In this document: piece after piece, positions 22,528 through 26,373 of the stretch | Layout of the letters: each line of letters opens with the position of its first letter | Numbering within the stretch: position 1 is the first letter of the stretch | Origin: Lachnospiraceae bacterium | GTDB lineage: Bacteria > Bacillota > Clostridia > Lachnospirales > Lachnospiraceae | Direction: 5' to 3' | Assembly (NCBI GenBank): GCA_022510565.1 | Contig: JAFLTE010000003.1 | Location: forward strand, 1-64,000 | DNA length: 64,000 nt | The notes under the pieces: generated by a model | The model's input: only the letters and a program-made list of their open reading frames with translations | Told to the model about the DNA's origin: nothing | The model's database searches: none | Translations under genes and position numbers: made by a program

Positions 22528-23355
22528 TTGAAAAACAGTGATGAAGGTAGAATAAAGGAATTTGAAGAATGGTTGTGCGATTTACATATGAGTAAAAACA
22601 CTGTAAATGTGTATGTCAGGGCTGTCAGATATATGCTGGAGTATGTGGATGGAAGAGAGCAGGAGAAAAATGGACTGACGGGTTTTCGGGAATATCTTAC
22701 GGGGAAATACAAACCCGGAAGTGTAAACCTTTACTTGATAGCGTGCCGCAAGTATCTTACATATTGCGGCTGTGACAGGGGAAAACTGCCAAAACCTGTT
22801 CGCATCCAGCCGGGACAAAGTGTAGAAAATATCCTGTCACTGGATGAATATGAAAAAATGCTGGACTACGCCAGAAAGAATCATAAATGGAAAGATTATC
22901 TGATCATGCGCACGTTAGCCTGTACCGGTATGCGGGTGAGCGAGTTGTCATACATAACGGTTGAAGTATTATCAGCGGGTAAAGTACAGGTATATAACAA
23001 GAATAAATACCGGGAAATCTATCTTCCGGATAAGCTCATAGCTGATTTGAGGGACTACTGTCGGAGCAACAAACTGACTGAAGGCCCTATTTTTTTGGGA
23101 AGCCTTGGGACCGGTATCGATCGGAGGAGTGTGTGGGAGATGATACAGAGAACAGCGCAGCACTGTGGGATTGAAAAAAGTAAGGCACATCCCCACAGCT
23201 TCCGGCACCTGTTCGCCAAAATTTTCATGGGACAATATGCAAATCTGGCGGAGTTGGCAGATATCCTCGGACACAGCAGTATTGAAACCACCAGACGCTA
23301 CACTATGTCTTCCATGGAGGAAAAACGCGAAAAAATAGATAGATTACCGCTGTAA
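22528..23355 (+). CDS. Tyrosine recombinase (candidate DNA invertase)
   Basis: 275 residues, XerC/D size. N-terminal SAM-like core-binding domain (about 8-90), then a catalytic domain with R136 (CTGMRVSEL), K160, H223 and R226 (HPHSFRH), H249 (LGHSS) and nucleophile Y258 (ETTRRYT). All catalytic residues are present. The start is TTG at 22528 with AAAGGAGG 8-9 bases upstream. It stands alone with no phage or conjugation genes. The stop codon is 26 bases from an inverted repeat that bounds an apparent invertible promoter, so a dedicated role in flipping that segment is likely. Confidence 0.9.
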   Translation: MKNSDEGRIKEFEEWLCDLHMSKNTVNVYVRAVRYMLEYVDGREQEKNGLTGFREYLTGKYKPGSVNLYLIACRKYLTYCGCDRGKLPKPVRIQPGQSVENILSLDEYEKMLDYARKNHKWKDYLIMRTLACTGMRVSELSYITVEVLSAGKVQVYNKNKYREIYLPDKLIADLRDYCRSNKLTEGPIFLGSLGTGIDRRSVWEMIQRTAQHCGIEKSKAHPHSFRHLFAKIFMGQYANLAELADILGHSSIETTRRYTMSSMEEKREKIDRLPL

Positions 23356-23380: not shown

Positions 23381-23404
23381 GACATAATACAATAGAATGT
23401 CAGG
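23381..23404 (+). repeat. Left inverted repeat (IRL) of the invertible element
   Basis: 24 bases whose reverse complement matches IRR (23526-23549) at 22 of 24 positions; the two mismatches are adjacent. It contains the -10 ATAATA/TATTAT of the leftward promoter. Outside the 24 bases, similarity stops at once on both sides. Confidence 0.85.
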
Positions 23405-23412
23405 TGTGTCAA
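23384..23412 (-). promoter_or_regulatory. Invertible sigma-A promoter, currently pointing at the recombinase gene
   Basis: On the minus strand: TTGACA (23407-23412, inside the segment), exact 17-base spacer, TATTAT (23384-23389, inside IRL). As given it would transcribe leftward, antisense to the recombinase. After inversion the same -35 would join the TATTAT in IRR (23541-23546) and read toward the gene at 23627. Confidence 0.85.
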
Positions 23413-23525
23413 TCTATTTTTTAAAAATTATTTTATTTTTTTTCACCCAGTATTTTCAATAGTGTTAAAAAGGGAAGAGAAAATGGGAAGGATGCGGTGT
23501 TTTGAAGCCGATCAAACTACATTTA
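23405..23525. other. 121-bp invertible segment
   Basis: AT-rich DNA between the inverted repeats with no gene. Its only clear signal is the TTGACA at its left end on the minus strand. The right end (bases 23518-23523, TACATT) has no -35 match, so the gene at 23627 has no promoter in this orientation. Confidence 0.8.
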
Positions 23526-23549
23526 CCTGACATAATATTGTATTATGTC
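23526..23549 (+). repeat. Right inverted repeat (IRR) of the invertible element
   Basis: Partner of IRL. Its core, 23529-23549, is itself a perfect palindrome of two 9-base arms around TTG, as expected for a tyrosine-recombinase core site with two inverted binding arms. It supplies a TATTAT -10 for rightward transcription. Confidence 0.85.
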
Positions 23550-23626: not shown

Positions 23627-24247
23627 ATGTCACATTACAAATTAAACGTAGACTTTTCGGATGCTGCACTGCAGAGTATTTACGGAGCAGGTATGAAACT
23701 TGCCATCGTAAAAACCGTGGAAGGGGACAAAGGTTCACCTGTCATTTGGGTTTCTACCCTGCCCTTTGAAAACAATACGATAGAATGGGAGGAAGAGTAT
23801 CAGCTTTATGCTTCCAGACAGGAGGCAATGCATGGTGCCACCATCAGCAAGCTGTCTGAGACAGCGGGAATCACCAACCTTTCTTTCGACTTCAAAGACG
23901 GTATCTTCCAGAATGCGCATTCCAGCGATGCTGTGGGAGAGAATGAATATGGCCTTCGCAATGCAATGAACGCATATTCCAGTCTGACCTTCGGTCTGTC
24001 AGAGGCTGTACGTGTGAACGGCGAACTGCAGAAAGGCAAACCCATCAATGCGGTTTCTGTACTTTACAATCATCAGGCGGTTATGTCACCCATTGAGAAG
24101 GTTCAGGTATTCCTGGCGAACGATATCAATGACGGAGTAGTACATACCAGAGAGTTCAGCAATGCGATTGAAGTCGTATATGAAGACAATGATGTCGAGA
24201 AGTCAATCCGGTATGATGAATCCAAGGGAATCTTTGTTCCGGTCTAA
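23627..24247 (+). CDS. Uncharacterised 206-residue protein, apparently phase-variable
   Basis: I do not recognise a named family with certainty. The protein is soluble-looking, with no signal peptide or membrane helix, and rich in beta-type sequence (KLAIVKTVEG, VIWVSTLPFENNTIEWEEEYQLYAS, NAVSVLYNHQAVMSPIEKVQVFL). AAGGAGAG lies 9-10 bases before the ATG. Its own upstream region lacks a promoter as given, but IRR of the adjacent invertible element lies 77 bases upstream and would provide one after inversion. It is followed by a terminator, so it would be the only gene controlled by the switch unless there is read-through. Confidence 0.8.
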   Translation: MSHYKLNVDFSDAALQSIYGAGMKLAIVKTVEGDKGSPVIWVSTLPFENNTIEWEEEYQLYASRQEAMHGATISKLSETAGITNLSFDFKDGIFQNAHSSDAVGENEYGLRNAMNAYSSLTFGLSEAVRVNGELQKGKPINAVSVLYNHQAVMSPIEKVQVFLANDINDGVVHTREFSNAIEVVYEDNDVEKSIRYDESKGIFVPV

Positions 24248-24297: not shown

Positions 24298-24351
24298 CAA
24301 ATGCCTGTGTAAATCAAAAATAGCTGCATGGACAGCAGAATGGAGGCTCAT

Positions 24352-26373
24352 ATGAACACAATGTATAGAAATAATGAAACCGGATATCGGCAGGTCAAAG
24401 ACGCAATTGAAAAACATCAAGAGATACTGCCATCGCCAATAATCACAAATAAGGCTTTATTTAGAGAGCAATTGTTGGACGAGTTCAATTATGGAGATAA
24501 AGAAAAAGAACTGAAAAACACACTTTATAATTCTGCGAAAGCGACACGGAACGAACCGTGGTCAGTGAAAGTGCCATCGGACGAGTCGCGGTCAGTGGAT
24601 ACGCGGGAAATGGTGAATAAAAATTTTGCCTATCTCAAAGATGCACCGAAGGCGTTGTTGCATGTGCACAGCACGGTAGGTCTGTCGGTGGAGAATCTGG
24701 GTGCGCTTATTGAACAGTGGAATGTTGAACAGGAGAAGTTGGAGGAGGAGAAGGAGAAGGCAAGGGAGCCCTATATTGATTTAAAGATTTATTATGCCAC
24801 AGTACAGACACCGGATTATAACGATGATGTTGAGAATGTTCTGTTGTACGGGGAACAGGTGGTACTCTTGGTAGAGGAAAAGGCGGATCCCGGATGGACC
24901 TTGGTGGATTTCGAACCGGTAAATCAAGGCTGGTTTAAAAATAATATATCCAGCTTCTGCTTGTCAGAGCCGGATGATATAATCACAAATTGGACAGAAT
25001 TCGGCAAAATATTTATGAGAACGAACCACCTGTTTCGAGACAGGGGGTTTTATGAAAAATACCACACGTGCTTTCTTGAGGAATGCATGTATGATAATAT
25101 CGGCTATGTGGAACTGCGGACCGGTTTTGCGGAATTTGCAGATTGGACAAAGAAGGAGGAGATAAGAAACAGCATCTTGTTTTTGCGACCGGATTTCAGT
25201 ATGAAGGATTATTTCTATCATGCCGATATGGTAGACCGTCTTGACCCGGTCACTCCGGATGCGGAATTTTTGGAATTGATATTAAGTGCTAGGGATCAAG
25301 CCATGGTTAATTGGATTAACGCAGGTAAACCCGATAAGGAGCTGGTGGTCAAAGTCATTCTGACAGCAAACAGAAATAAAGCGCAGACTAAGCCGGAGGA
25401 AGCCGGTCAAAAGATTGATGCAGCAATTTCTATGAAAAACGGTCTCGCATCAGTAAAGCACAATACTCCTCAAGACTTTATCGCAGATATGATTATCGGA
25501 TTTGACTTTGTGGACAGGGAAGATTCGTTAAACGGACTGACGGATACGCTTCACGGGATTATGTATGGTACATTTCCTTATGAGGATAAAGACCATCCCG
25601 AGTCTAAACTGAATATGCTTAAGGATAAATGCAGGATGGAGCTGATGCGGTTTTTCCTCCACGACGGGGAAAGTATAGCATCCATCAGTGATATTCGCAG
25701 CAATGCGGTCACAGGACCGATTTGCTCCCGCCACCGTATCGGACATGGTTTTCAGATGGGTACCGCTGAGAATCTTGCCTCCAATACAGACCTATACGGC
25801 AAACATATTATGCATTACATTCTGAACGGTTGCAGCAATGATGTAGACAAGCCGGGCGATTACCCCATCAATAATATCAACGACGACATCATAAGAAAGG
25901 ATTATATCACTGAGCCGGTAATCGAACTATGCCCCATAAGCAATTATATGCTCGGTTATGTAAAGAATCTGGAAGAGCATCCCGCTATTTCACTGATGGA
26001 GAATGGGATTCTTGCCGTGATCTGCAACGATGATCCCCAGATTTTTGGCAGCAGAGGATTAAGCCATGATTATGCCGTGATGTACATGGCTCTAAAGAAA
26101 CATTTTGAAAACAGGAAAATGAATGCACAGACAAAGGCATATGAGTATCTGAAGATAAGTTTCTTTCTGGGATATTTTTATGAGGAAATGAGCAAGAAAT
26201 ATTATAAAAAATTAAATGGAGAAAATAGTATCAACGTGGTAAATGACGACCTGTCAATGGAAGATGAGTGGAATGTTTTCACGGCCGCGTTATGCAAATT
26301 TAAAAGAGATTGGAGCAAATTTGTCAATCCTCCCACTAAGAAGGACCTCCCCACACCGGAAATAGTTCCATGA
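24352..26373 (+). CDS. Adenosine deaminase-like protein (ADGF/ADA-AMP deaminase superfamily)
   Basis: About 673 residues, roughly twice a normal adenosine deaminase. Metal and catalytic motifs of the superfamily are in order: LLHVHST (H104, H106), HRIGHGFQM, PVIELCPISNYMLGYV and NDDPQIFGSRGLSHDY. GFDFVDRED matches the substrate-loop motif. A large insertion (about 125-215) containing a charged coiled-coil stretch separates the first histidine pair from the rest. The layout recalls ADGF/CECR1-type deaminases, but there is no signal peptide. The start at 24352 has GGAGG 5 bases upstream. Substrate (adenosine or a relative) is inferred. Confidence 0.78.
   Translation: MNTMYRNNETGYRQVKDAIEKHQEILPSPIITNKALFREQLLDEFNYGDKEKELKNTLYNSAKATRNEPWSVKVPSDESRSVDTREMVNKNFAYLKDAPKALLHVHSTVGLSVENLGALIEQWNVEQEKLEEEKEKAREPYIDLKIYYATVQTPDYNDDVENVLLYGEQVVLLVEEKADPGWTLVDFEPVNQGWFKNNISSFCLSEPDDIITNWTEFGKIFMRTNHLFRDRGFYEKYHTCFLEECMYDNIGYVELRTGFAEFADWTKKEEIRNSILFLRPDFSMKDYFYHADMVDRLDPVTPDAEFLELILSARDQAMVNWINAGKPDKELVVKVILTANRNKAQTKPEEAGQKIDAAISMKNGLASVKHNTPQDFIADMIIGFDFVDREDSLNGLTDTLHGIMYGTFPYEDKDHPESKLNMLKDKCRMELMRFFLHDGESIASISDIRSNAVTGPICSRHRIGHGFQMGTAENLASNTDLYGKHIMHYILNGCSNDVDKPGDYPINNINDDIIRKDYITEPVIELCPISNYMLGYVKNLEEHPAISLMENGILAVICNDDPQIFGSRGLSHDYAVMYMALKKHFENRKMNAQTKAYEYLKISFFLGYFYEEMSKKYYKKLNGENSINVVNDDLSMEDEWNVFTAALCKFKRDWSKFVNPPTKKDLPTPEIVP

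Follow-up and report, generated by a model that had tools for sequence, protein, structure and literature searches.

The stretch of DNA analysed here (the window), 64,000 nucleotides from a Lachnospiraceae bacterium, contains a tyrosine recombinase gene, a short element bounded by inverted repeats and, beyond it, two genes read in the same direction as the recombinase. The recombinase gene (22528..23355, plus strand) encodes 275 amino acids and starts at a TTG codon, preceded by an AGGAGG ribosome-binding site; its stop codon ends at 23355, leaving 25 bases to the left repeat. Its product, the presumed invertase, belongs to PF00589 (E 8.7e-25; 87.9 bits against a cut-off of 27.1). Residues R136, K158, K160, H223, R226, H249 and Y258 are invariant in a seven-row alignment of this protein and six relatives, and we take them to form the catalytic R-K-H-R-H-Y set. 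All its scores against the XerA, XerD and XerC equivalog models lie below the NCBIfam curated cut-offs (136.2 of 220, 108.4 of 329.6 and 102 of 335.15, respectively), so that it is not assigned to any of the three. The open frame adjacent to the element bears out the first-pass annotation, which had placed a recombinase with all catalytic residues there. Relatives at E <=1e-50 are present in 100 of the 397 genomes of the family, and at E <=1e-80 in 18 of the 77 genomes of the genus, while a single pattern-based scan of viral contigs did not find any.

Between the recombinase gene (22528-23355) and the following gene (23627-24247) lie two inverted-repeat arms of 25 nt each (left, 23381..23405; right, 23525..23549), complementary at 23 of 25 positions and spaced by 119 bp. 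As in an inverton, these repeats surround a short segment, presumed to be invertible (23406..23524, coordinates taken from arm symmetry). This is the same object described earlier as 24-bp repeats, identical at 22 of 24 positions, around 121 bp, which had been trimmed by one base. A feature absent from that description is that both arms are near-palindromic about a 7-bp core, which reads TACAATA at 23388-23394 in the left arm, a presumed recombination site, and TATTGTA at 23536-23542 in the right arm, which contains a perfect 9-3-9 palindrome. A seeded scan of the 64-kb window yielded no second inverted repeat of at least 22/24 with a spacing of 30-300 bp, and no repeat of such quality appeared when the 400-bp region was shuffled 150 times under a first-order Markov model. 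In the genome searched, which is about 90% complete, the site motif at 0-2 mismatches is confined to these two arms; when up to 3 mismatches are allowed, 15 matches are obtained, against 24 for a reversed-pattern control.

The promoter elements of this region are distributed between the segment and the arms. On the minus strand, TTGACA (23412-23407), located inside the segment, is followed after a 17-bp gap by TATTAT (23389-23384), a -10 element in the outer half of the left arm that overlaps the core by two bases. This TTGACA (23407..23412) is the sole consensus -35; it currently faces the recombinase, and the promoter that it forms with the left -10 points away from the gene at 23627. The right arm carries its own -10 on the plus strand (TATTAT, 23541..23546), which in the present orientation lacks a -35, the corresponding position being occupied by TACATT. 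Hand calculation based on arm symmetry places TTGACA, after a flip, at 23518-23523, with 17 bp separating it from the right -10, and the promoter of the inverted form would then lie about 80 bp ahead of the start codon at 23627. Thus, promoter direction would depend on orientation through one movable -35 and two fixed -10 elements. The minus-strand promoter, TACATT at the right end, the geometry after inversion and the OFF orientation of the window had all been pointed out in the first-pass annotation, and each was recovered on re-reading the sequence. No terminator is predicted in the window's own segment.

The first gene of the putative target operon (23627..24247, plus strand) encodes a protein of 206 amino acids for which no match was obtained in Pfam, NCBIfam or PADLOC at the thresholds used. 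It is predicted to be mostly beta (mean pLDDT 81, pTM 0.74), with fair confidence in two of the five models, and comparison of the predicted model with other structures did not give a convincing neighbour. The gene occurs in 5 of the 77 genomes of the genus and in 5 of the 397 of the family, its own genome being counted in both. The second gene (24328..26373, plus strand) encodes an adenosine-deaminase-related (ADGF/CECR1-like) protein of 681 amino acids, which matches PF00962 (E 1e-10) and TIGR01431 (E 7.9e-22, yet under its cut-off), and whose C-terminal part (residues 531-590) matches a CECR1 chain (E 6.1e-13). It retains HxH, GHG and DDP motifs. The same pair, a homologue of the 206-aa protein and then an adenosine-deaminase-related one, occupies this position at the related loci L040, L047 and L097, as well as at L094, which lies outside the set of 38 loci described below. 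Other homologues of the 206-aa protein have no such recombinase recognised alongside, as in G029 and G074, or no adjacent one recognised, as in L205 and L206. In G029 and L205, small genes nearby match sigma-70 region 4 and helix-turn-helix models, and G074 and L206 look alike by eye.

For comparison, 127 loci were examined, duplicates included: the window, 80 from genome contigs and 46 from whole-genome searches. Six were dropped, their recombinase motif giving no match; no paired site of this type reached the threshold in 73, and 48 had a pair. Subtracting 10 duplicates leaves 38 distinct loci, including the window and mostly from Lachnospiraceae, judging from record titles or genome kinship. 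Pairs were searched with the cores TACNATA and TATNGTA and with similarity of the arms, the -35 being left out of the criteria; an ON (inverted) element keeps the same cores and is hence detectable by this search. This search held constant six of the seven positions of the core, together with the initial TA of the -10 element in each arm; free variation was thus confined to the central base of the core and to four bases of the -10. Choosing the best-matching pair also biases slightly toward core agreement. Moreover, the loci are related, and counts over the 38 are not independent trials. The same layout is found in L039 and L094, both dropped by the recombinase motif. When 138 genomes from another genus were searched, 14 gave matches, and 12 of the 13 loci beyond the existing set were copies of loci already counted; the remaining one, L233, has the same left-facing orientation, with TTGATT. 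Same-clade recombinases without a paired site at the threshold also exist (L059, L062, L067, L068, L078 and others), and in L059, L062 and L078 the downstream gene resembles a ZIP-type transporter by eye.

The central core base is equal in both arms at all 38 loci (G in 24, A in 9, T in 5), an agreement reached in 0 of 100,000 permutations. On the recombinase tree, six or more changes of this base are needed, and a match maintained through such changes is what would be expected if two recombining sites must share their crossover sequence. The left site is accompanied by TTGACA in 30 loci, TTGACT in seven and TTGCAT in one (L070), so that 37 of 38 lie within one mismatch of the consensus. At the right site, no locus has a -35 within one mismatch at 17-bp spacing, and two have one with 2 mismatches. 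The right -10 is closer to TATAAT than the left one in 28 loci, equally close in 8 and less close in 2; a better -10 at the end without a -35 makes sense if the segment flips. At one locus, L038, the right site is decayed.

Two further features accompany the sites. The 20 nt upstream of the -35 have an A+T fraction of 0.79, against 0.63 in the 20 nt inside the right site, and this stretch may resemble an UP element. An intrinsic terminator (<=-10 kcal/mol) facing the target as the segment now lies is predicted in 25 of the 38 segments and one on the other strand in 4, with a baseline of 1.8% in 380 Markov shuffles. In the relatives that carry it, OFF would be a double lock, with the promoter directed away and the terminator blocking. 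In a promoter scan that was confined to the trimmed arms and not anchored to the sites, the minus strand did not outscore the plus strand in 9 of the 47 rows of this site type (a count that includes duplicates); the advantage of the plus strand there was 0.0-3.1 bits, in part because the scanned range ended with the trimmed arm and left out the left -10. For other arm types, the minus strand scored higher in 25 of 27 rows (some of them duplicates or doubtful repeats), in five cases by less than 1 bit; L137 and L100 scored plus. The arms at L137 consist of three palindromic sites in tandem, and TTGACA-17-TATTAT is found internally on the plus strand; this may be a multi-site inverton. In L090, L093 and L122 (Lachnospira), an inverted repeat with different arms lies beside a related recombinase, and in L090 it lies ahead of a short peptide that looks like a bacteriocin by eye and has a leader of the double-glycine type.

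A plus-strand open reading frame starts within about 114 bp past the right arm in 37 of 38 loci, the exception being L044, where the first ORF is on the minus strand. Proteins of an endolysin-type BLAST cluster, with amidase and/or phage lysozyme domains according to Pfam on examples only, are encoded by the first ORF in 18 of 38 loci and by the first or second in 20, and a DUF2589 cluster, likewise Pfam-confirmed on examples only, is present in 21. Other targets include a TcdA/TcdB-type glycosyltransferase domain, an endonuclease/exonuclease/phosphatase and an HNH protein. By a crude measure, a hydrophobic N-terminus occurs in a single first ORF of the 38 (L070).

Operons combining an endolysin-type amidase/lysozyme with DUF2589 are found in L037, L041, L049, L063/L194, L079/L201, L091/L198 and others, and those of L194 and L201 add an uncharacterised protein of 340-351 aa. 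Downstream of the inverton-linked operon, L194, L198, L200 and L201 encode a large sensor-like protein, with Cache, HAMP, SpoIIE and HATPase domains by Pfam in L194 and a similar appearance by eye in the other three. The endolysin/DUF2589 operons could possibly constitute a lysis or effector-release programme. The same inverton type also stands ahead of DUF2589-cluster genes and a further protein family in L069, L073, L077 and L089; the L069 member of this family matches the TcdA/TcdB glycosyltransferase domain.

With regard to inversion itself, no ON-oriented member of this site type appears among the 38 loci, and the additional locus L233 also faces left. Segment matches of at least 32 nt between different same-type loci all run in the same direction, the sole listed exception of that length, 96 nt inverted between L084 and its duplicate L120, reflecting a self-complementary segment; opposite-direction matches of up to 31 nt occur between some same-type segments. 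In a sister lineage with other arms, L100 and L103 share segment sequence over 191 bp, at 81% identity and in opposite orientation, their recombinases being closely related (tree end branches of 0 and 0.05). This pair supports, on comparative grounds, the occurrence of inversion in that lineage. Plus and minus promoter candidates differ by just 0.6 bits in both, and we are unsure which of the two would be ON. Finally, L114 has one hybrid site ahead of an amidase-like gene, compatible with a past deletion between arms or with other routes.

Taking all this together, the element of the window is best explained as a split invertible promoter that acts as a phase-variation switch, a reading to which we assign a probability of about 0.88. 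The first-pass annotation had already proposed a phase-variation switch, and the open recombinase frame, the core agreement in 38/38 loci, the left -35 in 37/38, the quality of the right -10 and the downstream ORF in 37/38 support that proposal. The adjacent recombinase would recombine the two near-palindromic arms and thereby invert the 119-bp segment. Each arm would contribute a fixed -10 in its outer half and the segment one strong -35. In OFF, this -35 would pair with the left -10, directing transcription toward the 3' end of the recombinase gene and away from the target; a flip would bring it into register with the right -10, and transcription would then enter the genes for the 206-aa and the adenosine-deaminase-like proteins. 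In most relatives, although not in the window, a terminator in the segment would also stop read-through in OFF. The anatomy, its conservation, the matching core base, the one-sided -35 and the excess of terminators can be read directly from the sequences. For this site type and this strain we infer that the segment inverts, and for the strain also that the recombinase acts on these arms and that the ON form is expressed.

Three further points go beyond the earlier annotation: each arm supplies its own -10, many relatives add a terminator, and OFF, as judged from predicted promoter direction, is the state of all the loci compared. Assemblies should display the majority orientation, and ON would thus be the minority form in these populations. 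Antisense feedback, a costly or sacrificial ON state or regulated recombinase activity may bias the switch to OFF, the first two being given equal weight.

It is possible, at odds well short of even, that OFF is stabilised by feedback, the RNA from the OFF promoter being antisense to the recombinase, so that OFF cells would rarely switch and ON cells would revert fast. This would be an addition to the split-promoter switch and not an exclusive rival. It would account for the uniform OFF state, and in 37/38 loci a promoter with a consensus -35 does face the 3' end of the recombinase gene in OFF, 35/38 having no predicted antisense terminator before the recombinase stop codon. However, the gap is mostly short, and the absence of a terminator would be expected anyway; moreover, three of the 38 do carry one there.

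The costly-ON proposal, equally tentative and also compatible with the split-promoter switch, holds that the operon would encode cytoplasmic effectors or cell-wall lysins and that ON cells would be lost. The frequency of the endolysin and DUF2589 clusters among the targets (18/38 as first ORF or 20/38 as first or second, and 21/38, respectively) and the near absence of hydrophobic N-termini (1/38 first ORFs, by the crude measure) agree with it. Nevertheless, the window locus has no lysin, and in Clostridioides difficile cwpV, which encodes a surface protein, is also mostly OFF (96% in strain 630, according to the available text of PMC2784873).

Two readings deny a working switch. That the sites are fossils, formerly inverted and now fixed, with a left promoter making only antisense or regulatory RNA, would fit the absence of an ON form from this site type, the single hybrid site of L114 and the decayed right site of L038, but is very unlikely in view of a free core base that still matches between the arms after six or more changes, of the open recombinase frames in the 38 loci and of a right -10 preserved better than the left. 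That the arms are operator or terminator hairpins rather than recombination sites, as the near-palindromic form of each might suggest, can hardly be correct, since the core base changes in step in both arms, a recombinase adjoins them and the motif within 2 mismatches occurs only as this pair in the genome searched (about 90% complete).

Returning to the split-promoter switch, a wider and rather improbable generalisation would be that of a widespread Lachnospiraceae inverton, locked OFF by promoter direction and mostly also by a terminator, in which rare ON cells would release a cytoplasmic-effector operon (endolysins, DUF2589 proteins, nucleases, glycosyltransferases, adenosine deaminases), with ON being transient or sacrificial and genomes therefore showing OFF. 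In practical terms, the recombinase family, the site grammar (outer -10, 7-bp core, inner -35 and often a terminator) and the target operons make such switches predictable from sequence. The uniform OFF state across the species compared directs attention to the rarity of ON and to the role of the effector-like operons.

As for known systems, literature searches found no description of the split-promoter layout, and on that basis such promoters may be new. In Escherichia coli, FimB and FimE differ in switching bias. The fimS element on which they act is, like that of the window, an invertible promoter element with dedicated recombinases, although its promoter lies between the repeats and two recombinases are involved, as described in the available text of PMC2784873. 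In C. difficile, the inverting element of pdcB also contains a promoter and is OFF in the reference genome; it differs from the window in that no recombinase had been assigned to it, its target is a c-di-GMP phosphodiesterase and a second promoter lies upstream, and the available part of the report makes no mention of a split promoter (PMC9286219).

The cwpV switch of C. difficile would involve an intrinsic terminator toward the gene in OFF; none is predicted in the window segment, although target-facing ones are predicted in 25/38 loci. The gene of the cwpV recombinase, recV, lies away from cwpV. Both systems combine an XerC/XerD-family tyrosine recombinase with imperfect repeats, of 21 bp around a 195-bp segment in cwpV (PMC2784873, as far as its accessible text goes). 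According to the same text, the cwpV promoter lies outside the inverted region, whereas in the window the -35 moves; a terminator has been proposed to form in OFF, and genomic DNA of strain 630 was 96% OFF (PMC2784873).

A candidate for the same family is inverton group 139, associated with invertase group 35, a tyrosine recombinase, with 32 of its 33 members from Clostridia and two reported to change orientation in culture, in the available text of PMC11892184, a survey of invertible promoters in gut bacteria. It shares with the window short inverted repeats, the segments of two examples measuring about 205 and 227 bp by coordinates, and a nearby tyrosine recombinase (PMC11892184). That text mentions neither a split promoter nor a fixed OFF state (PMC11892184). 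In sum, the switch of the window is very likely a split-promoter, OFF-biased variant of the known invertible promoters, in which the recombination sites hold the -10 elements and the -35 alone changes place.
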